DNA of 64,000 nt, from the NCBI RefSeq assembly GCF_032191465.1, contig NZ_JAQOUE010000001.1, positions 620,001-684,000 of the forward strand, given 5' to 3'. The notes below the pieces were generated by a model. It worked only from the letters and a program-made list of their open reading frames with translations, searched no databases and was not told where the DNA came from. This DNA comes from Candidatus Nitronereus thalassa. GTDB taxonomy: Bacteria > Nitrospirota > Nitrospiria > Nitrospirales > UBA8639. Below, one piece after another: positions 10,230-57,342 of the stretch (position 1 is the stretch's first letter; every line of letters starts with the position of its first letter). Both the position numbers and the translations under genes were made by a program.

Positions 10230-10352
10230 CCCCCTCCTTTGCAAGGAGGGGTTAGGGGAGGTAGAAGCGCGGATCAATACTATTCGTCAACTAGAGGAGC
10301 AGGTACCCTTTCATGACGCTACCCCACCTAGCCTCCCCTTACAAAGGGGAGG
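10230..10352. repeat. Paired GC-rich inverted repeats between flavin reductase and thiolase genes
   Basis: The left arm (10230-10262) contains CCCCTCCTTTGCAAGGAGGGG, itself a palindrome, followed by TTAGGGGAGGT. The right arm (10321-10352) is a diverged reverse complement, with ACCCCACCTAGCCTCCCC then TTACAAAGGGGAGG. The arms flank about 58 bases without a gene. The layout resembles a REP/BIME or a small MITE-like element. It interrupts an otherwise tightly packed operon and could act as an attenuator or an mRNA-stability element. Confidence 0.65.
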
Positions 10353-10391
10353 AACAATACGACAAATTGCTTTAACTGGGCGGTTCACCAA

Positions 10392-11570
10392 ATGACCTCG
10401 GCTAAAAAAGAAACCTTCATCTACAGCGCCGTGCGAACGCCCATCGGAAAGTTCAATGGGGCCTTGTCTTCTCTCACCGCGCCGGAACTCGGCTCCATCG
10501 TGATTGCCGAAGCGATCCAAAGAGCGGGAATTCAAAAGGACCAAATCGATGAAGTGATATTCGGCAATGTCATTTCCGCCGGCGTCGGCCAGGCCCCGGC
10601 CCGACAAGCGGCTCTGAAAAGCGGCCTTTCCGAAAAGGTAAGCGCTACCACCATCAACAAGGTCTGCGGCTCGGGCATGAAGGCCGTCATGATGGCCGAT
10701 CAAGCGATCCGGTTGAACCAAGCCCGATTCATCGTGGCCGGTGGAATGGAAAGCATGAGTCAGGCCCCTTTTTTGATTCCCCACATGCGCCGGGGCCGCA
10801 AATTGGGCAACGCCCAAATGATCGACAGCCTCATCCACGATGGGTTGTGGGATCAGCATGAAAATGGACACATGGGAGAACTGAGCGACAAAGTATCTCA
10901 ACAACACGGCATTTCCCGCGAGAGTCAGGATACCTACGCCGTCAACAGTTATGAGCGCGTGAAAAAAGCCCAAAAAGACGGCGTGTTGGCCGGAGAAATC
11001 GTGCCGGTCCGGGTAACCCAACGCGGACAGTCCTTCGGAGTGGACCATGATGAACAACCTGAGTGTGACGATCTCGCCCAATTTCCTGCGCTGCCCCCGG
11101 TCTTCGATTCACAACACGGAACCATTACCAAAGGCAACGGAGCCAAAATCAGCGACGGCGCAGCGGCTTTGGTAATAGGCGGGGAATTTTCAGACCTCAA
11201 CCCCGTCGCCAGAATCGTCGGGTACGCTACGCATGCACAAGCACCGGCTACGTTTGCGCTGGCGCCGATTGAGGCCGTGAAAAAGGTCCTTCAGCAATCC
11301 CGCCTTCAAGTGAGTGATATCGATCTGTTTGAAATCAACGAGGCGTTTGCCGCCATGTCCCTGATCGTGCATGAGGCGTTGGGGTTAGATTCCGACCAAG
11401 TGAATGTGCATGGAGGTTCGATCGCGCTCGGTCACCCCATTGGAGCAACCGGCGCGCGCATTCTTGTGACACTGATTAATGCGCTGAAAAGCACGGGACG
11501 ACGACGCGGGGTGGCCAGCTTATGTATCGGAGGCGGGGAGGCCACGGCCATGATCATAGAAATCGTGTAA
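10392..11570 (+). CDS. atoB: Acetyl-CoA C-acetyltransferase (thiolase)
   Basis: Cleaves acetoacetyl-CoA with CoA into two acetyl-CoA, or runs in reverse. The three thiolase signatures are present: the acyl-accepting cysteine in NKVCGSGMKAVM, the GGSIALGHPIGATGAR histidine loop, and the C-terminal CIGGGEATAM with the second catalytic cysteine. The 392-residue length is normal. It lies 215 nt after the flavin reductase gene and 25 nt before the acetoacetyl-CoA synthetase gene, so together they convert the acetoacetate released from tyrosine into acetyl-CoA. Confidence 0.95.
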   Translation: MTSAKKETFIYSAVRTPIGKFNGALSSLTAPELGSIVIAEAIQRAGIQKDQIDEVIFGNVISAGVGQAPARQAALKSGLSEKVSATTINKVCGSGMKAVMMADQAIRLNQARFIVAGGMESMSQAPFLIPHMRRGRKLGNAQMIDSLIHDGLWDQHENGHMGELSDKVSQQHGISRESQDTYAVNSYERVKKAQKDGVLAGEIVPVRVTQRGQSFGVDHDEQPECDDLAQFPALPPVFDSQHGTITKGNGAKISDGAAALVIGGEFSDLNPVARIVGYATHAQAPATFALAPIEAVKKVLQQSRLQVSDIDLFEINEAFAAMSLIVHEALGLDSDQVNVHGGSIALGHPIGATGARILVTLINALKSTGRRRGVASLCIGGGEATAMIIEIV

Positions 11571-48120: not shown

Positions 48121-48591
48121 AAAATTTTCAAGGGATAACCCGGGTATTTTAGTTTGGGGCTTTCCAAGTGGAAGTCTTAAGGTCAGTTGCCTACACCGTG
48201 TTTTCTAAAAGCAAAGACAAGTTGTCCCGACTCAGACAGATTGTCCAGCCCACCTGCCAACAATACAGGATTCAGCGACAAATAACTTAATGAGTAAGCA
48301 AGCTATCATGAGTATTTTTCTTTGATAGACCACTCTTTAGGCACACACCTAATTGGCACAAAGTTTGCGTAAAGTCCGAAGGAAACAAACGTGGCAGCAC
48401 CTGTTCGACAGGATCGTCGCTTTCCAACACGACTGACGGCACTTGGTTAAGCAATGCTCGCATTCGATTTCTCACCATCAAAAACTCACGTAATCTCTAT
48501 CGAGGCCAATGCTCCTTCGCCGCTATCATAACTTTCAGGGTATAAAACTTGCCTAACATCCCATTACCGGAAATTTTTCCAGGCCATAGTT
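48121..48591. other. Gene-free stretch before the NhaD/ArsB-type gene
   Basis: No convincing gene. A minus-strand frame at 48287-48481 (64 codons) has no ribosome-binding site and no recognisable family. A weak dyad CTATCA/TGATAG lies near 48303-48330. The right end leads into the promoter region of the transporter gene. Confidence 0.4.
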
Positions 48592-49920
48592 ATGTCTGAA
48601 ACTGGTGGGTCCCACCTCCTTCTGGCCACCAGTATCCTGCTGGTCACCTATGCGGTCATAATTTCCGAGCGTTTTAACCGTGCCATTGTCGCACTTATTG
48701 GCGCTTCCTTAGTCATAGGACTCGGTGTCCTCTCCCAAGAAGAAGCTATTCGCGGCATTGATTTCAACACCCTTGGATTGCTCGTTGGCATGATGGTGTT
48801 AGTAGGCATCACAAAAGAATCAGGGGTGTTTCAATTTCTCGCTATTAGAGCAGCCAAATTCGCCAGAGGAAAACCCTGGGGCATTTTGGTGATGTTATCA
48901 ATCGTCACGGCGATCCTCTCGGCGTTTCTGGATAATGTCACCACCGTCCTCCTTGTGGCACCCGTCACCTTACTTATCGCCGACGAATTAAAAATCAATC
49001 CCTACCCCCTCCTTTTTGCTGAGATCAACGCATCTAATACAGGAGGAACCGCCACTTTGATCGGAGACCCTCCTAATATTATGATTGGCTCGGCCACAGG
49101 TTTGACGTTTAATGAATTCGCGATAAATCTGTCCCCTGTGGCCTTGATGGTGTTTGGAGCAACTCTTATACCGCTATGGTGGATTTATGGAAAAACCTTG
49201 ACCGCATCCCCCGAGGCGCAAAACCGGATCATGGCTTTTGATGAATATCAAGCCATTCGAGACGTGTTTCTTCTCAAGCAATGCTTAGCCGTATTTGGGC
49301 TTGTGATTATTGGATTTATCTTCGCCCACCCCCTGCATTTAGAACCGGCAACTATCGCACTGGGCGGCGCAGCGCTTCTATTACTGTTGGTGACTTTTCC
49401 CTTAGACCCCGAAAAGGCTGGCCATAAAGTTCATTTATTGTTTGGCCAAGTAGAGTGGATAACGATCTTCTTTTTCTGTGGTTTATTCATTATTGTCGCC
49501 GGGGTGGAGCATGCCGGGCTTCTCAAAAAATTGGCTGACTGGACGTTAGCCTTAACCTCTGGGGACTTTACTGTGACCCTGTTGGCGATTCTCTGGGTCT
49601 CGGCGGTCTTATCCGCCATCGTGGATAACATTCCGTTTGTGGCGACCATGATTCCCATGATTAAAGACATGCTTCCGATATTCGAACAAAGTGGGGTTTC
49701 TGCAGATCAGGTCGTCGGACTTTGGTGGGCCTTGTCGCTAGGAGCCTGCCTGGGGGGAAATGGATCACTCATCGGGGCATCCGCAAACCTGATCGTCGCC
49801 GGAATTGCCGAACGAAACGGCGTACCATTCCGCTTTATGGCTTTTTTGAGAGTCGCGTTTCCTTTAATGATACTCCAGGTTTTAATTGCCAGTGTCTATG
49901 TTTGGTGGAGGTATGCATGA
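48592..49920 (+). CDS. NhaD/ArsB-type (ion transporter superfamily) membrane transporter
   Basis: A 442-residue protein with about 11-12 membrane helices in two inverted halves. The paired signatures are AFLDNVTTVLLVAPVTLLIADELKINPYPLL...INASNTGGTATLIGDPPN in the first half and AIVDNIPFVATMIPMIKDML...GACLGGNGSLIGASANLI in the second, as in NhaD Na+/H+ antiporters and ArsB. No arsenic genes are near, and a CPA2 antiporter gene is next door, so Na+/H+ exchange is the better guess. It overlaps the CBS gene by 4 nt. Confidence 0.88.
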   Translation: MSETGGSHLLLATSILLVTYAVIISERFNRAIVALIGASLVIGLGVLSQEEAIRGIDFNTLGLLVGMMVLVGITKESGVFQFLAIRAAKFARGKPWGILVMLSIVTAILSAFLDNVTTVLLVAPVTLLIADELKINPYPLLFAEINASNTGGTATLIGDPPNIMIGSATGLTFNEFAINLSPVALMVFGATLIPLWWIYGKTLTASPEAQNRIMAFDEYQAIRDVFLLKQCLAVFGLVIIGFIFAHPLHLEPATIALGGAALLLLLVTFPLDPEKAGHKVHLLFGQVEWITIFFFCGLFIIVAGVEHAGLLKKLADWTLALTSGDFTVTLLAILWVSAVLSAIVDNIPFVATMIPMIKDMLPIFEQSGVSADQVVGLWWALSLGACLGGNGSLIGASANLIVAGIAERNGVPFRFMAFLRVAFPLMILQVLIASVYVWWRYA

Positions 49921-50366
49921 ACGCCAGGGATATCATGACTCAAGAGGTGCGTACACTCTCTCCCGAATGCACGATCGGCGAGGCGGTACGCCAATTCGCA
50001 CAGGAAAAAATTCAATCGTTTCCCATTATTGATGCCAATCGGAAACTTCTGGGAACGTTGAATCTATGGAAAATTCTTGAACACGTACTGCCGGATTACC
50101 TGTTATCCGGAGAGCTTCGAGAGGTGGGCTATGCTCCAGATCTCAAACAAATTCACGAACGGTTAGTTGCTGCAAAGCATGAGGCGGTCTCGTCTCTGAT
50201 GACGGTTAATCCACCAGTCGTGAGCCCAGATGATTCCGTATTGGCCTGCGCCACCCTCATCATGAACACTCCAAAAACGGTATACTTACTCCCAGTGGTT
50301 GATACCTCACAACACCTTCTGGGTATCATTGCCCCTTGGGATATCATTAAAGAAATTGCCCAGTAG
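49917..50366 (+). CDS. Two-CBS-domain protein
   Basis: A 149-residue protein made of a pair of CBS domains: ARDIMTQEVRTLSPECTIGEAVRQF...FPIIDANRKLLGTLNLWKILE and SSLMTVNPPVVSPDDSVLACATLI...LLPVVDTSQHLLGIIAPWDIIKE. Such pairs bind adenosine nucleotides. The ATG overlaps the stop codon of the NhaD/ArsB-type gene (ATGA), so it most likely regulates that transporter in response to energy state. Confidence 0.9.
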   Translation: MNARDIMTQEVRTLSPECTIGEAVRQFAQEKIQSFPIIDANRKLLGTLNLWKILEHVLPDYLLSGELREVGYAPDLKQIHERLVAAKHEAVSSLMTVNPPVVSPDDSVLACATLIMNTPKTVYLLPVVDTSQHLLGIIAPWDIIKEIAQ

Positions 50367-50400
50367 GCAGGTCCCAAAGGATAGCCCAACTTATCTTTGG

Positions 50401-51621
50401 TTACCCAGCCGTGGGGTTTGGCAGATGATGCTGGTAGTTCTTGTATAGCCACTTGACGGCAAACGGAGGGAACATGGTGGTAAGCGCAATCACAATCACC
50501 ATTCCGGCATAAATTTCATTCGTAAAAATTTCACTCACCCGACCCAATTCAGCAAAAATGAGACCCACTTCTCCGCGTGGAATCATGGCGGTTCCAATGA
50601 TGAGGCGAGCAGGCCAAGGTTCATCAAGCAAAAGCGCCCCAACCATTTTTCCAGCAATCGCCACGACAAAAAGACACAATGAAAAAATCCAAATAAACGG
50701 GGAACTCCAATTGACATCTTGCAAATTTAAGGACAATCCAACCATCACAAAAAATATTGGAGTAAATAAAAAAATAATCGGATTCATTTGCGCCTCAATA
50801 CGTTCGGCAAACGCAGGATCGTAATGCAGGGCCACCCCAAAGGGAAGAAAGAACCGTCGAGAAAGCGCCAAGCCCGCGGCAAACCCCCCAAGCAATTCTG
50901 GGGCCCCCACTTCGTGGGCCAACCATGCAAAAAACAGCACCAGTGAGACCACAGAGGTTGGAATTAATCCTGAAATGGTTGTGACTTGTTCGAAACGATG
51001 AATGATCTGAGAAATCAATTTTGCGGCGATAGGGGCAAGGATAAAAAACGCGGCTAAAAACGCAAGGACCTTGCTGGCATTAAACAAGTTGATTCCGCCT
51101 CCAATGGAAAATTCGTACAGGAGGGCAAGCAAGACTACCCCCAAGACATCGTCCAGAACCGCCGCTCCTAAAATGATCTGGCCTTCTCGATTTTGATGAC
51201 GATTCAGATCCATCAATACCCTGACCGTAATCCCAATGCTGGTGGCGGTTAAAGTCCCCCCAACAAACAATGAAACCAGGAGAGACAAACCAAATACCCA
51301 ATACCCTAGAGCAAATCCCAGAATAAAAGGCACCACAAACCCCCCTGCTGCGACTATGAAAGAGGCCAGTCCCGTACGTACCAGACGCTTGACATCGGTT
51401 CCTAACCCGACTTCGAATAACAATAAGATGATGCCGATCTCCGCGAGCAACTTGATGACCTCGCCCGGCTCAATCCAACCCAGCAGACTTGGTCCTAAAA
51501 CCACGCCTGCGCAGAGTTCCCCCATTACCCGTGGCGCATGCATGCGTTCCGCAATCTCTGCAAAAATTCTTGCCGTCAGGAGAATAATGAGTAGGTGCAG
51601 GAAAAAGGTATGAACTTCCAC
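50401..51621 (-). CDS. CPA2-family cation:proton antiporter
   Basis: A 406-residue membrane protein with about 12 helices of the Kef/NapA type. It has RVMGELCAGVVLGPSLLGWI in the first helix pair, a conserved LLLFEVGLGTD, and the ion-binding AVLDDVLGVVLLALL with the double aspartate. The end PRGEVGLIFAELG is also typical. No TrkA-N (RCK) domain is fused, so it resembles NapA/NhaS3 Na+/H+ antiporters rather than KefB/C. It is convergent with the CBS gene. Confidence 0.92.
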   Translation of the reverse strand: MEVHTFFLHLLIILLTARIFAEIAERMHAPRVMGELCAGVVLGPSLLGWIEPGEVIKLLAEIGIILLLFEVGLGTDVKRLVRTGLASFIVAAGGFVVPFILGFALGYWVFGLSLLVSLFVGGTLTATSIGITVRVLMDLNRHQNREGQIILGAAVLDDVLGVVLLALLYEFSIGGGINLFNASKVLAFLAAFFILAPIAAKLISQIIHRFEQVTTISGLIPTSVVSLVLFFAWLAHEVGAPELLGGFAAGLALSRRFFLPFGVALHYDPAFAERIEAQMNPIIFLFTPIFFVMVGLSLNLQDVNWSSPFIWIFSLCLFVVAIAGKMVGALLLDEPWPARLIIGTAMIPRGEVGLIFAELGRVSEIFTNEIYAGMVIVIALTTMFPPFAVKWLYKNYQHHLPNPTAG

Positions 51622-51840
51622 AGTTACCCCATACGTAAGTGGAATTAAACTCAGGTAAGCAGCGACTTACACAACAAACCCAATATGCCTCAGGGTCTCA
51701 ATAAATGCTACCCCTTAAATACACGTATGAAAGGAAGGTGCGATCCAGGAGGGAGCGGATTGTCATATCTAGAAGAAAGCGGGAAAGTAATGTAATCTTA
51801 AGAAAGAAAGTGGACCCTTTGGCATGTTTAATGGAGACTA

Positions 51841-52173
51841 ATGATGAGTGGATCCTACAAGGGTCGTCACAAATTACAACGGCTCCAAAAACCTCAAAGC
51901 AACCGTCCCGTGGAAGACGTAGTCAAAGAATTACAACAAAAACAACCACGCCACCCACCCTACCGAGAACAGTCATTTAAAATTCATGGTTTGATTTGCG
52001 CCAAATGCGCCAGGGAGTTTGATGAAAGCAATAAACATCTGCTCACCGTCCATCATAAAGACGGTAATCATCACAATAATCCTTCTAATGGGTCAAATTG
52101 GGAAAATCTCTGCGTCTACTGCCACGATGACGAACACAGCCGAGGAATGCTTGGCGACTATTTGAGCTCTTAA
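51841..52173 (+). CDS. yajD: YajD-type HNH nuclease-like protein
   Basis: A 110-residue HNH protein very close to E. coli YajD. The zinc-binding and active site reads CAKCAREF, then LTVHHKDGNHHNNPSNGSNWENLCVYCHDDEHS: two CxxC pairs, the HH dyad and an Asn as in the HNH fold. The N-terminal 45 residues are basic and without a known domain. GGAG precedes the ATG. It lies 287 nt before the HD-HSP90-like gene on the same strand and may or may not share its transcript. Confidence 0.88.
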   Translation: MMSGSYKGRHKLQRLQKPQSNRPVEDVVKELQQKQPRHPPYREQSFKIHGLICAKCAREFDESNKHLLTVHHKDGNHHNNPSNGSNWENLCVYCHDDEHSRGMLGDYLSS

Positions 52174-52460
52174 GCCAGGGAATTTCGATTTTTGACTGAG
52201 ACCATTAACCGTGTGCAGACTGGATCCAATTCTACCCAATCTCCCAAAAACCAAGCTCGTCATTGAAGTTTAATAGTATTGTGGTGTACTTTTGAATCTA
52301 TAATCATCGGTTCTATTTGTCCCTGATTTTTTTAAGTGTTCTGTATCATTAGTCCCAGGCATCTGAATCATTTGGCTATTTGCCAGGTGAAATATTCTCA
52401 TGCACGAGTTGAGATAACTCTTCCATAATGAAATAACGGCGTGCCCGGAGCCATTCTAAT

Positions 52461-55430
52461 ATGAGATTAGACCCTCAAAACACACCTTTATTTAATTACT
52501 TATACCAAAAAAGCTCCGTTTATCATGGTAAGGCCTTAGAACTTCGAGAAGCGATTCAAGATTGGTTAGCCTACATTCCCGAAACCTTTCCACATTACAC
52601 CAGACATACTGTTCAACATAGTGATGAAATCATTTTGCAGATATCAAAAATTCTTTTCTTCGACGATGATCCAAACAAGGGGTCCATTCAGCTTTCAGCG
52701 GTTGAGGCATATATATTAATTGCCGCAGCCTATCTACATGATGCTGGAATGGTCACTTCAAATAAGGAAAAAGAGAATATATTACAATCGGAAGATTGGA
52801 AAATTTGGACTACTTCTGGTGGCGGAAAAAAAAGATGGGAAGAAATAATTCAACTTCGAGCTAATAATCGTCCACCTGATGAAACGCTTCGAAATTTCCT
52901 AGCTGATCTACAAATTCGCTTCTTAGTAGCAGAATATATCCGTCGTTATCATCATATTAGAGCCATGAATGTAATTAGTGAGCACCAAGCATCATTAGGC
53001 CGATTTGCTTTTGATGATCCAATTTTGTCCCGCACCATAGCGGATGTCTGTGTTGCACATGGATATAATCTTCATGAACTTGAAGATAGAGAGCGCTATC
53101 CCGACCAAAGAGATATTCGAGGAGAAAAAGTCAATGTCCGATTAATGGCAATTCTTCTTCGGCTGGGAGACCTACTGGATATGACCTCGGACCGTGCCTG
53201 TCCTTTATTGTTGAATGTAGCTTGTCCTTTACCTGCGGATAGCCTGGCTCATTGGACACAATATCGACGAATTAGTCATAGGCTTTCTAGCCCAGACTGT
53301 ATAGAAATTCGAGCAGACTGTCATACACAGGATGAACACACAATATTACAGGATTGGTGTCATTGGATCGTTAACGAAGTCCAAAATTCCTCTGCAGTTG
53401 CAGCACGGTTTACTAGGCACAAGGAGTGGAACCCGCCACAGGCAATTCTGAATGGAGAAAATGCCACTATCCACATTCGTCCAGCATCAACAGCAAGTTA
53501 CGTGCCTTCTAAGTGGACATTTGAATTAGATCATGAAGTCGTTTTCCAACGGCTGGTAAATGACGTTTATGATCACCCTGCAGTGTTTATCAGAGAGTTA
53601 ATTCAAAATGCACTGGATGCATCACGTTCTCAAATGTACGCAGACATAATAATGGAAGGGAAAGCTCCACCGGAATATCCCACACAAGTTCAAAAAGAAT
53701 ATAGAAAGCGATATCCGATTGATATAAGCATCGAATGTAAACAAATTACAAATGCCCTTTCAGAAGAGTTAGAGGAACGGCAAATTTTTAAAATTAATGA
53801 TTGGGGCATTGGAATGGACACAGAAATTATCGAAAGATATTTTCTTCAAGTCGGTCGGTCCTACTATACGACTGATGAATTTCGGCGAAAATTCAGTTTC
53901 GTGCCAACAAGCCGTTTTGGAATTGGGTTCCTTTCTGTCTTCGCCGTGAGCGACCTAGTAATTGTTGATACATATAAACCAACCAGTCCTAACCATGATG
54001 GTGCCATACGAATTAGTCTTTCGGGTCCCAGGAATTATTTGCTTAGGGAAAAATCACAGAGAAGAAAAACCGGAACAAAAATCGAAGTCCTTTTACGAGA
54101 GAATATAGAGCGAGGACAAATTACAAACCTCATATCCAAATGGTGTCGAAGAGTAGAATTTCCGATTGTAGTGAACGACTTCGGAACAAAAACCATAATA
54201 GAAGCTGAACGTCCAGAAGAATTCATAAGTGAAATACCAGATGTAACTGAGGAAGGCGCAACGTTTCGAATACGTTCCTTTCCAATCAATCGTCCTGGTA
54301 TTGAAGGAGAGTTGTATGTTTTTGCTCACATAAATGCTGGCGGAGAATCTTGGGATAAGCTCTATTGGGCGAGACATATCTATCCGTTAAAAGATCCCAG
54401 AGCCACACCCCCTGAATACGTTGAGGATTTAATTTGCACCCATGGAATTGCAGTTGGTGCCCTTAGGCATTGGTTTGGGCATGGTTATTCATCTGCGATG
54501 AGGGCACGTCTGGATTATCGTTCAAATACTCAAGAATTAAACTTATCTAGAAGCACTATCCATAATCGAAGAGAATTGACGGAAAGAGGAGATCCAATGG
54601 TTATTTCCAGATGGGAGGAAATTCTACAGGAGCATTTAAATGGATCATCTTACGCAAATCGAGAAGACGGATGGAAATATAAACAGAGACTTGTCAATCG
54701 CTTTCCACTTCACACCTTTTGGGCTTCGCAACCTGAAACCATACCAATCTATCTGGACAATAAATTCTCAAAACTATCTCTGAAGCAAATTAAACAATTC
54801 GGTTTGATAACTTATGTGATTCCTGCAGGAGCTATTCATAGACATTCTCTTTATGGAGAGGATACGGTAAAAGAAATTCAAATTTCAGATTTGGATAACA
54901 ATGCTCCCACTATTTCGGATAATGACCTGTCTTTTACTTCAGATGAACACATTACCGAAATTTTCGGAAATAGAATTGCAAGCAATGTACGATGGCTAGA
55001 AAGTGGGGACTTTGCTATAGATTGGGAGCTCGGAATTAACGAGCCTGAATATTCACCATTTTATATGACCAGATTTCCTAATTCGGAAATCATTGGATCA
55101 GGCATAATTAGAAAAAGTAGTAAATATTTTGGATCTTACCTATTACTGAATCTCAATAACGAATTTGTACAATGGTTTTTAAGGATTAAACTTGCTTCTA
55201 AGGAACCGCAAAGTCCAGTTACCATGACGCATGCCAATCAAACAAGTCATTTAATTGAAGAATGCATAAAATACCACGGAGGAAAGCTCCATGATCTGTC
55301 TGGCTATTTAAAAGGTTGGGGAAATATCAAAAGTCTAACGGCCGAACTTTGCCCACCAGAAATCGAGTTAAAAAGAAAAATGTTTGTTCTATGCAGAGAT
55401 GAAAATGTAGAAGAGGACTGGCCCTCTTAG
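52461..55430 (+). CDS. HD-domain plus HSP90-like (GHKL) ATPase protein
   Basis: A 989-residue cytosolic protein with two recognisable parts. The HD phosphohydrolase-like part (about 40-330) has H49 and H53 (HTVQHSDE), H93-D94 (AYLHDAGM), H164-H165 and D237 (LGDLLD). The GHKL ATPase (about 360-560) has the N box FIRELIQNALDA, the G1 box INDWGIGMD (D447) and the G2 box SRFGIGFLSVF, arranged as in HSP90. The remaining 400 residues match nothing I know. Codon use is markedly richer in A and T than in neighbours, which suggests horizontal transfer. A role in stress or phage defence is inferred, not shown. Confidence 0.85.
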   Translation: MRLDPQNTPLFNYLYQKSSVYHGKALELREAIQDWLAYIPETFPHYTRHTVQHSDEIILQISKILFFDDDPNKGSIQLSAVEAYILIAAAYLHDAGMVTSNKEKENILQSEDWKIWTTSGGGKKRWEEIIQLRANNRPPDETLRNFLADLQIRFLVAEYIRRYHHIRAMNVISEHQASLGRFAFDDPILSRTIADVCVAHGYNLHELEDRERYPDQRDIRGEKVNVRLMAILLRLGDLLDMTSDRACPLLLNVACPLPADSLAHWTQYRRISHRLSSPDCIEIRADCHTQDEHTILQDWCHWIVNEVQNSSAVAARFTRHKEWNPPQAILNGENATIHIRPASTASYVPSKWTFELDHEVVFQRLVNDVYDHPAVFIRELIQNALDASRSQMYADIIMEGKAPPEYPTQVQKEYRKRYPIDISIECKQITNALSEELEERQIFKINDWGIGMDTEIIERYFLQVGRSYYTTDEFRRKFSFVPTSRFGIGFLSVFAVSDLVIVDTYKPTSPNHDGAIRISLSGPRNYLLREKSQRRKTGTKIEVLLRENIERGQITNLISKWCRRVEFPIVVNDFGTKTIIEAERPEEFISEIPDVTEEGATFRIRSFPINRPGIEGELYVFAHINAGGESWDKLYWARHIYPLKDPRATPPEYVEDLICTHGIAVGALRHWFGHGYSSAMRARLDYRSNTQELNLSRSTIHNRRELTERGDPMVISRWEEILQEHLNGSSYANREDGWKYKQRLVNRFPLHTFWASQPETIPIYLDNKFSKLSLKQIKQFGLITYVIPAGAIHRHSLYGEDTVKEIQISDLDNNAPTISDNDLSFTSDEHITEIFGNRIASNVRWLESGDFAIDWELGINEPEYSPFYMTRFPNSEIIGSGIIRKSSKYFGSYLLLNLNNEFVQWFLRIKLASKEPQSPVTMTHANQTSHLIEECIKYHGGKLHDLSGYLKGWGNIKSLTAELCPPEIELKRKMFVLCRDENVEEDWPS

Positions 55431-55509
55431 TAGTAGTAAGGATAAATCCGAAATAAAATAGATGTCAGTTTTGCATAACAATTTCAAATATTCTCATTGG
55501 TCTGCCAAT

Positions 55510-57342
55510 TTAAAATGGCAGCTTAAAACCACCGGGGAGTTTGTCTGGAAGTCCTTCAGGTAGACCTTTGGGTAGGGCATTCTTGGGCAAGCCTTGTTCG
55601 AGCAATCCTTTTAAAAGATCGTTTTCTTTGGCTAAGCGATTGGTGAGTTCGCCGCCGATGGAATCCAAACCGCCGAGTGAACCGGTCAACGCCTTGAGTG
55701 GCTCAGAGACTTTGGCTGAAATCGCCGATTGTAAATCCTTGCCAAAACTTGCCGCGAGGTTCTTCACCATTTTTCCTGCAGCCTCTTTTAAGATCCGATC
55801 AAGTTCCGATTGAATACGCACGTCATACTGTTGGACCGTTCCCGTGATTTCGGCTTGAACCGACAGCGTCGAAATATCCGAAACCGCCCCACTTAAGGCG
55901 TTGGTCAGCGGATTAGCATCCCCGGGTTTCCCGGCCACTACCTGCAGAGATGACAAATCGGTGCTGCCGATCGCTGTAATGGCTTGACCCCGAAGTTGGG
56001 CATTAACTGTCACATCAGCAACCCCATTCTTAAGGACGACAGGCCACTCGGGTTGGGTAGACAAGGCCACCGGTTGAAGTTGGTACTCCTTCGCTTGAAA
56101 TTGGATGGTATCCTGAGGTTGTTCCGGATTACGATGATCCAATGTCCCCTGAATGGTTACACTTTGAACATCCTTCAATTGTTTCCCGGCAAAGGCAAAG
56201 GTGAGGGGAAGGTCTAGAATGTGTGGCTCTGGAGTGATATTTTTGATTTGTCCCTGTATTTGACCGATATCCAAAAGGAAGGACACTTTCGCCAATCGAA
56301 TCAAAAATTCCGGCACCGGTTGATATTCGGTAAAATGGACGTCTATTCCCTCACCCCTTTCAGGTGCTGGCCGATCCTCCGTTGAAGAATCCCCAGACTC
56401 TATTCCTCCAAGATAGGGTTGGACCATTTCATACCACCCCACACCTTCCTGAAGTTTCTCTCCAATTTGTTTTCCCAATAAGGATTCCCCAAGATTCGCG
56501 AGCCCTTTGGGAGACAAGCTATATTTCTCCTTCAACCGATTCAGGTCACGCTGCGGTGCTGACTGAACCTGTGCAATACGCTGCTTAAGTAACGCAATTT
56601 TTTCGTTAAACTCTTTTCGAGCGGACTTCAGATTTTCAAGGTCTTGTTCTATTTCCTGCTTGATGGTTTTGAGTTCTTCGACACCACCAAGCACATCACC
56701 GACGCCTTTTTTGGTCGATGATCTCAACTCTTCAATGCGCTTTTGATATTTGGCGAATTCCGCTTGCCCAGGCAAAGTCTTCAGTCGTTGCTTCCACACC
56801 TCTTGTTCTCGGTGAATGTCGTTCTGAATGGTTCGGACAAGTTTTAGGGTTTCCAGATCTTCCTGCTCCAGGATCTGTTCCACATTTGGGACCTTCAGCG
56901 GAGGAAGCGTAAAAGACAATTCCTCTTGGGGTGGTCCTTCCGTCAATTTTTGACTTCGAACCTCAATAGCTCCTGATGTGGCGCGGGCCGTCCCAAACTG
57001 CACATCTTCAACAGTCATCTCAGAAATAAGGACCTTGCGCCGCAACAACTGCAGACCATCCAAGCTCATGACCAAATTGGCGATTTCCACCATATTTGTC
57101 ATGGGCTTCTCAGGATTTGTGACTTGGAAACGCGTTAGCCTTAGGCCTGCGGGAATTAACGTCAGATCCGCAGACCCAAGCTCCACTTTCGCGCCAACCG
57201 CCTTTGTTCCTTCCTCCTCAATAAGGGCTTTCACCAAACCATCCACCACCAACAGCCACAGCGCGGCAATAGCACACACTAATACGACGAAGGCACCCAA
57301 CCCCCACCAGCGAATAACGCCAGTTTTTGGCTGAGTCATCAA
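55510..57342 (-). CDS. TIGR03545-family membrane protein (AsmA-like)
   Basis: A 610-residue protein: one N-terminal transmembrane helix (about 11-33), then VKALIEEEGTKAVGAKVELGSADLTLIPAGLRLTRFQV, the start of an AsmA/DUF748-like beta-rich periplasmic part, then a long coiled coil (about 165-265) and a Gly/Pro/Lys-rich end. These features match TIGR03545, which is normally paired with TIGR03546 as here. The ATG overlaps the TIGR03546 stop by 4 nt. The role is unknown; an envelope or lipid-transport function is a guess from AsmA similarity. Confidence 0.85.
   Translation of the reverse strand: MMTQPKTGVIRWWGLGAFVVLVCAIAALWLLVVDGLVKALIEEEGTKAVGAKVELGSADLTLIPAGLRLTRFQVTNPEKPMTNMVEIANLVMSLDGLQLLRRKVLISEMTVEDVQFGTARATSGAIEVRSQKLTEGPPQEELSFTLPPLKVPNVEQILEQEDLETLKLVRTIQNDIHREQEVWKQRLKTLPGQAEFAKYQKRIEELRSSTKKGVGDVLGGVEELKTIKQEIEQDLENLKSARKEFNEKIALLKQRIAQVQSAPQRDLNRLKEKYSLSPKGLANLGESLLGKQIGEKLQEGVGWYEMVQPYLGGIESGDSSTEDRPAPERGEGIDVHFTEYQPVPEFLIRLAKVSFLLDIGQIQGQIKNITPEPHILDLPLTFAFAGKQLKDVQSVTIQGTLDHRNPEQPQDTIQFQAKEYQLQPVALSTQPEWPVVLKNGVADVTVNAQLRGQAITAIGSTDLSSLQVVAGKPGDANPLTNALSGAVSDISTLSVQAEITGTVQQYDVRIQSELDRILKEAAGKMVKNLAASFGKDLQSAISAKVSEPLKALTGSLGGLDSIGGELTNRLAKENDLLKGLLEQGLPKNALPKGLPEGLPDKLPGGFKLPF

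Follow-up and report, generated by a model that had tools for sequence, protein, structure and literature searches.

What does the most AT-rich gene of the window encode, and how did it come to stand among ordinary neighbours? The window is the whole stretch of DNA that we analysed, 64,000 nucleotides of Candidatus Nitronereus thalassa (contig NZ_JAQOUE010000001.1, positions 620,001–684,000). A preliminary description had proposed a protein of 989 residues in which an HD phosphohydrolase-like domain is joined to an Hsp90-type ATPase, encoded by an acquired accessory gene. The open reading frame runs on the forward strand from an ATG at 52461 to a stop codon at 55428–55430 without internal stops, and both domains were identified by independent libraries (Table 1). 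A chance reading frame or a decayed gene is ruled out by the conservation of residues among relatives. We consider the product a probable immune protein, hitherto uncharacterised, with a switch of the Hsp90 type.

The gene is single-copy in its own genome. Its codon use is richer in A and T than that of its neighbours, as had been claimed: the GC content is 0.397 versus 0.492 ± 0.026 in 43 other window genes, and GC3 is 0.304 versus 0.508 ± 0.062, both values being the lowest of the 44. Promoter-like sites were below chance expectation and terminator-like sites only slightly above it (4 versus a shuffle mean of 2.5, s.d. 1.5), and both were left unused. One of 45 other window proteins matches the TIR/PycTIR models of PADLOC (1e-13 to 1e-14).

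Table 1. Features of the locus, in window positions
Feature	Position	Strand	Basis
HNH (YajD-like) gene, ancestral flank outside the insertion	51841..52173	+	NCBIfam PRK11295 3.3e-29
Insertion relative to sister genome G002, 3,336 bp versus 25 bp	52174..55509		HNH stop to stop of the downstream gene
CDS, HD-CE / Hsp90-N / Hsp90-M / variable C-terminal protein	52461..55430	+	989 aa
HD-CE domain, residues 43–308	52587..53384	+	Pfam PF24391 8e-47; conservation; VIA Z ~12 to class I PDEs
Hsp90-type GHKL ATPase domain, about residues 352–575	53514..54185	+	NCBIfam HtpG 6.7e-21, PDB phmmer, conservation in 66 sequences
Hsp90 middle domain, about residues 600–756, catalytic-Arg motif ELNLSR (R697)	54258..54728	+	VIA alignment; R697 65/65
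Fast-evolving C-terminus, about residues 757–989, candidate sensor	54729..55427	+	pLDDT, no match, low identity
Conserved 610-aa gene, ancestral downstream flank	55510..57342	-	75% identical in G002; 27/49 family genomes

The HD-CE domain

The N-terminal domain belongs to the Pfam family HD-CE (PF24391), which it matches with 160.6 bits against a gathering cut-off of 27 and over profile positions 1–262 of 263. In the alignment of 66 sequences at about 20% identity, residues H49, H53, H93, D94, R161, H164, H200, R234, D237, and R245 are invariant, or nearly so, where aligned. They include H53, H93-D94, and D237, which the preliminary description had named. In all complete relatives the metal ligands of the H...HD...D pattern (H53, H93, D94, and D237) are invariant, as are H49, H164, and H200.

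The HD domain modelled alone reached a pLDDT of 88. This model superposes on class I phosphodiesterases with a VIA Z-score of 12.3 (4.7 Å over 231 residues) and on PPX/GppA also with Z of about 12, a value within the tool's warning range for helical folds, and it has no Foldseek match with E below 0.1. When a profile of 59 HD-CE domains was compared with PDB sequences, phosphodiesterases came top (E 9e-4), aligned over H49-x3-H53 and H93-D94. Chains of the dGTPase type and MIOX are not among the best 50 of the HD fold search, a result that excludes neither, and dGTPase family models gave no match to the window protein in the Pfam and NCBIfam scans. The class I phosphodiesterases (PDE1–PDE11, TbrPDEB1) share with the window protein the HD superfamily, the aligned HxxxH...HD motif, and, with a match that is only moderate and counts against the phosphodiesterase-like reading, probably the overall fold, whereas the identity is about 12%, and the window protein has two further invariant histidines (H164, H200) and the fusion to Hsp90. 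From the motif and the model, we read the HD domain as having a phosphodiesterase-like metal site. The HxxxH...HD motif is similar to the one in cyclic-nucleotide phosphodiesterases, and the likely target of HD-CE is therefore a phosphodiester or phosphoanhydride bond of nucleotides (or nucleic acid).

The Hsp90 module

The HD-CE domain is followed by an Hsp90/HtpG ATPase match at residues 352–598, with HtpG as the NCBIfam hit and Grp94 (1e-9) as the PDB hit. The ATPase motifs are E379, N383, D386, D447-x-G449-x-G451, and F486-G487-x-G489, and the N, G1, and G2 boxes are present as the preliminary description had it. Residues R378, E379, Q382, N383, D386, D447, G449, G451, G487, and G489 are invariant or nearly so where aligned in the 66 sequences. 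The nine catalytic-site residues tested are all kept in the 64 complete relatives (64/64). The match scores 74.4 bits in NCBIfam and fails the HtpG equivalog cut-off of 371.

Modelled with AlphaFold2 from 66 relatives, the protein has a mean pLDDT of 77, with mostly confident prediction up to about residue 740. Its residues 355 to about 756 align with closed-state human HSP90B with a VIA Z-score of 26.6 (4.3 Å over 329 residues), and with HtpG and TRAP1 with Z-scores of 22–26. Because the alignment with these structures spans residues 355–756, the Hsp90 middle domain is present as well as the ATPase domain. The segment QELNLSR ends with R697, which is found in all 65 relatives that reach that position and which we take to correspond to the catalytic arginine of Hsp90, R380 in yeast. 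The combined N and M module carries all residues required for ATP binding and hydrolysis, the middle-domain arginine included. The ATPase and HD sites are both intact, also in the 64 complete relatives. That both sites are kept at about 20% identity across phyla implies selection on both activities.

The C-terminus

The C-terminus stands where Hsp90 carries its C-terminal dimerisation domain. Beyond about residue 756, the last 230–240 residues of the model have a pLDDT mostly under 50. The C-terminal 240 residues or so have no Pfam or PDB match, and the dimerisation domain of Hsp90 was not detected in them by sequence; the model confidence after residue 756 is too low for a fold to be assigned. 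The preliminary description had left about 400 residues at this end without assignment; the Hsp90 middle domain, which reaches about residue 756 (Z 26.6), accounts for the first part of them, and about 240 residues without a match remain.

The C-terminus is only 20% identical to that of the closest relative that possesses one. Among moderately close pairs, the ATPase domain has a mean identity of 0.60, HD of 0.53, the middle domain of 0.39, and the C-terminus of 0.23, the lowest of the four, which makes the C-terminus the fastest-evolving part. From its fast divergence and its position we propose the C-terminus as a candidate sensor. A subfamily of about 800 amino acids consists of HD, N, and M and lacks this extension, so that sensing in these proteins would have to fall to the Hsp90 middle domain or to a partner. 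The closest relative of all (L024, 51% identical) ends near residue 750, where an apparent IS transposase start follows (10298–10429), and a piece matching residues 818–984 lies on another contig of the same genome.

Insertion into an ancestral gene pair

In the sister genome G002, the HNH gene (84% identical) adjoins the downstream 610-aa gene (75% identical) at a distance of 25 bp. The insertion between them in the window holds the HD-CE–Hsp90 gene alone, and neither of its junctions has a clear target-site duplication or att site. The HNH gene had been suggested to belong to the same cargo. This is rejected: the gene is ancestral in sister genomes, is present in 26 of the 49 genomes of the family, and abuts the downstream gene in G002, which lacks the insert. 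The neighbours of the window gene are ordinary, non-defence genes, and the gene is solitary and outside any defence island, which counts against a defence reading.

On the other side of the HNH gene, a segment of 3.7 kb (48122–51843; an ArsB/NhaD-like transporter, a CBS gene, and a CPA-type antiporter, named by sequence reading) is missing in G002 and G001. As it adjoins the HNH gene, genes are gained or lost at this spot on either side of that gene.

Distribution and horizontal transfer

The gene is absent from two congeners, one of which is only 64% complete. The fusion occurs in three of the 270 genomes of the class, on separate tree branches, and the remaining matches in the class are plain HtpG-like genes. 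A pattern scan of the contigs of one genome per species gave 321 confirmed relatives, with 79 loci kept, from many bacterial phyla and archaea; the figure of more than 300 relatives counts matches to a single search pattern. Relatives are also found on plasmids and on 18 IMG/VR contigs, several of which have terminase, portal, integrase, and baseplate genes close by. E. coli genomes gave no DNA match to two relatives from enterobacterial or viral contigs.

A tree built from 96 relatives places the window gene together with sequences from a proteobacterial and an actinobacterial metagenome-assembled genome (support 100), and the two kin of the gene from the class lie far away, one of them beside an alphaproteobacterial sequence; such single placements are soft, as bins may be contaminated, and the overall mixing of phyla is not. 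The phylum labels require 32 changes on this tree against a minimum of 11. Vertical inheritance of the whole gene is rejected by the insertion relative to G002, the absence in congeners, the presence in only 3/270 genomes, and the phylum-mixing tree. The gene arrived by horizontal transfer. The preliminary description had taken it for an acquired accessory gene, and the insertion, the odd codon use, the sporadic distribution, and the tree agree with this; the opposite picture that it had named, of homologues that form a vertically inherited, syntenic gene with a housekeeping association, or else of broken HD and ATPase sites, is not what the analysis showed.

Neighbourhood of the relatives

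The preliminary description had raised phage defence, with enrichment in defence islands as a check, and such enrichment is seen around the relatives. In 27 genomes, 149 neighbour proteins match 237 PADLOC models, versus 24 for 146 control proteins from the same genomes (1e-10); the models are redundant and the ratio overstates the numbers of proteins, the direction is clear, and generic ATPases occur in both sets. The neighbours were the three genes on each side, and the controls were genes of the same contig tens of kilobases away, mostly 70–100 kb. Strong matches among the neighbours are Gabija GajA/GajB, Hachiman HamA/HamB, ZacB/ZacC, PARIS AriA, and PDC-S06. On inspection by eye, the Aliarcobacter copy has Shedu and a Type I S subunit beside it, the Lachnospira copy an Abi family gene, and the Hymenobacter copy AbiEii and recombinases; a BsuBI-like restriction gene and a serine recombinase, assigned by sequence reading, adjoin the copy in G255. 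The carriage on plasmids and in prophages points the same way as the neighbour counts.

In some relatives, genes on the same strand lie 15–100 bp away. They encode OLD-like AAA_15 ATPases (L054, L058), AAA_13 ATPases (L033, L039), an AAA_23/SMC ATPase (L023), SLATT/DUF4231-type membrane proteins (L096, L050, L102), and a weakly matching TIR_2 protein (L054). These operon-like AAA ATPase, SLATT, or TIR partners of several relatives may be the true effectors.

Comparison with known systems

NLR-like conflict proteins combine an effector, an NTPase switch, and a sensor (PMC7159879, PMC8195603), and "the nucleotide phosphodiesterase HD domain" is listed among the potential effectors of such proteins (PMC8195603). 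Other HD-CE proteins of the same phylum have this layout, with fusions to NACHT plus FGE-sulfatase, AAA/STAND-like, and AAA plus TPR plus SEC-C modules. The HD-CE domain is what the window protein has in common with the HD-CE family at large, namely the proteins in which HD-CE is joined to NACHT or STAND-like modules and the C-terminal part of RT UG24; the difference lies in the NTPase, which in the window protein is a GHKL/Hsp90 module and not a P-loop STAND/NACHT NTPase or a reverse transcriptase. The loci of the same-phylum fusions (L200, 8864–12070; L197, 990–4226; L196; L198) encode further uncharacterised NLR-like proteins.

The likeness to Hsp90, HtpG, and TRAP1 comprises the ATPase and middle domains, the catalytic glutamate, the Mg-binding asparagine, the G1 and G2 boxes, and the catalytic arginine. 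In contrast to these chaperones, the window protein has no detected dimerisation domain, carries a 310-residue HD enzyme in front, has a transferred distribution, and fails the HtpG cut-off.

VcSduA, a GHKL-ATPase Shedu protein, provides a GHKL ATPase within a tested anti-phage protein, and its authors propose that the ATPase controls the nuclease (PMC12137116). The proposed gating of an effector enzyme by a GHKL ATPase is shared with the window protein, whereas VcSduA has a PD-(D/E)xK DUF4263 nuclease as its effector and carries its domains in the opposite order; a Pfam scan found no DUF4263 nuclease domain in the window protein. In Clover CloA and SpdGTPase, an HD enzyme is the anti-phage effector and acts on nucleotides (PMC12265719). 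Both lack an Hsp90 module, and CloA is paired with the nucleotidyltransferase CloB; the window neighbours are the HNH gene and the conserved 610-aa gene, with no CloB-type function assigned, and there is no match to a dGTPase model.

No known PADLOC system accounts for the protein, as no model covers the fusion: RT_UG24 matches the HD part only, and TmtA of Tiamat, rejected as a candidate, matches with 14.9 bits over 30 of 1302 model positions, at the N box of the ATPase only. We found no description or test of the HD-CE–Hsp90 fusion in the openly available literature, and PADLOC 2023 has no model of it. HD-CE is already a known, curated Pfam family; the novelty would be that the NTPase gating the proposed immune effector is of the unusual Hsp90 type.

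Proposed function and alternatives

A defence role of the family is well supported by context, and phage defence is the function that we infer from it. We give about an even chance to the reading that the window protein is a stand-alone, horizontally acquired, NLR-like immune effector, in which an Hsp90 clamp gates a phosphodiesterase-like HD effector and the C-terminus senses. The mechanism (an HD effector, activation by ATP-driven closure, and sensing by the C-terminus) is inferred in all three steps by analogy with the NLR-like HD-CE proteins, VcSduA, and Clover. HD-CE, as a metal-dependent hydrolase of the HD superfamily, would be the enzyme that does the killing or depletion. The Hsp90 N and M domains would act as an ATP-driven clamp that holds HD off and switches it on upon closing, in place of the NACHT or STAND NTPases of other HD-CE proteins, and the fast-evolving C-terminus would sense the phage. 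The wider proposal, that a large class of bacterial and archaeal immune receptors replaces the STAND NTPase by an Hsp90 N and M clamp whose closure, set off by a sensor signal from the Hsp90 side, activates a nucleotide-destroying, phosphodiesterase-like HD effector, is tentative, and we would lean slightly against it.

The partners of some relatives suggest a different division of labour, in which the protein would not be the effector but a sensor or regulator of defence: Hsp90 would recognise misfolded or foreign proteins, and HD would make or destroy a nucleotide signal for effectors nearby (SLATT, TIR, OLD- or Rad50-like ATPases). The same-strand ATPase, SLATT/DUF4231-type, and weak TIR_2 neighbours of several relatives agree with this, and SLATT proteins have been reported beside nucleotide-related effectors in conflict systems (PMC7159879). 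However, the window gene is the sole gene of its insertion and has no such partner, and the partners vary among relatives, many of which have none; we regard this reading as rather unlikely. The relatives on plasmids and on the 18 IMG/VR contigs, several near terminase, portal, and integrase genes, could also speak for a weapon or anti-defence factor with which prophages and plasmids exclude competitors or protect themselves. Most copies, however, are in bacterial genome assemblies beside classical defence systems, and many prophage-borne genes of such a kind are anti-phage systems themselves, which leaves the mobile-element role quite improbable.

We rank lowest, as very improbable, a role in general stress or in proteostasis, in which the protein would be an Hsp90 paralogue and HD would adjust an alarmone or nucleotide pool. 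The full catalytic apparatus of Hsp90 N and M would suit a chaperone, and the ordinary HtpG-like genes of the class kin are a possible source of it. Against this stand the scattered, transferred, AT-rich, and inserted gene, the hypervariable C-terminus, the defensive neighbours of the relatives, and a score (74 of 371 bits) far under the HtpG equivalog cut-off.

If the preferred reading of an Hsp90-gated immune effector is correct, a widespread family of more than 300 matches, whose plasmid members are annotated as "ATP-binding protein" or "hypothetical protein", would be an immune family. The conformational cycle of Hsp90 would then regulate an enzyme fused to it and not a folding client, a chaperone engine turned into an immune switch, and bacteria would have a counterpart of the connection that NLR maturation and sacsin make between immunity and Hsp90-like modules. 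It would be a one-gene system in which the ATPase and effector residues are both predicted and can be mutated at once.

Additional observations on relatives

In two relatives, the HD-CE–Hsp90 gene lies in a row with an OLD-like ATPase gene and, in L054 (8090–13053), with a small TIR-like gene, with gaps of 15–80 bp; the layout of L054 and L058 is possibly that of a three-gene system in Flavobacteriia. The plasmid copies from Aliarcobacter (L019, 8905–11726) and Lysinibacillus (L020, 8762–9894) are split into at least two reading frames and are apparently broken. Clostridium uliginosum (L044, 2332–13831) has three diverged HD-CE–Hsp90 genes of 809, 874, and 1298 amino acids within 12 kb, the first and third of which belong to distant parts of the tree.
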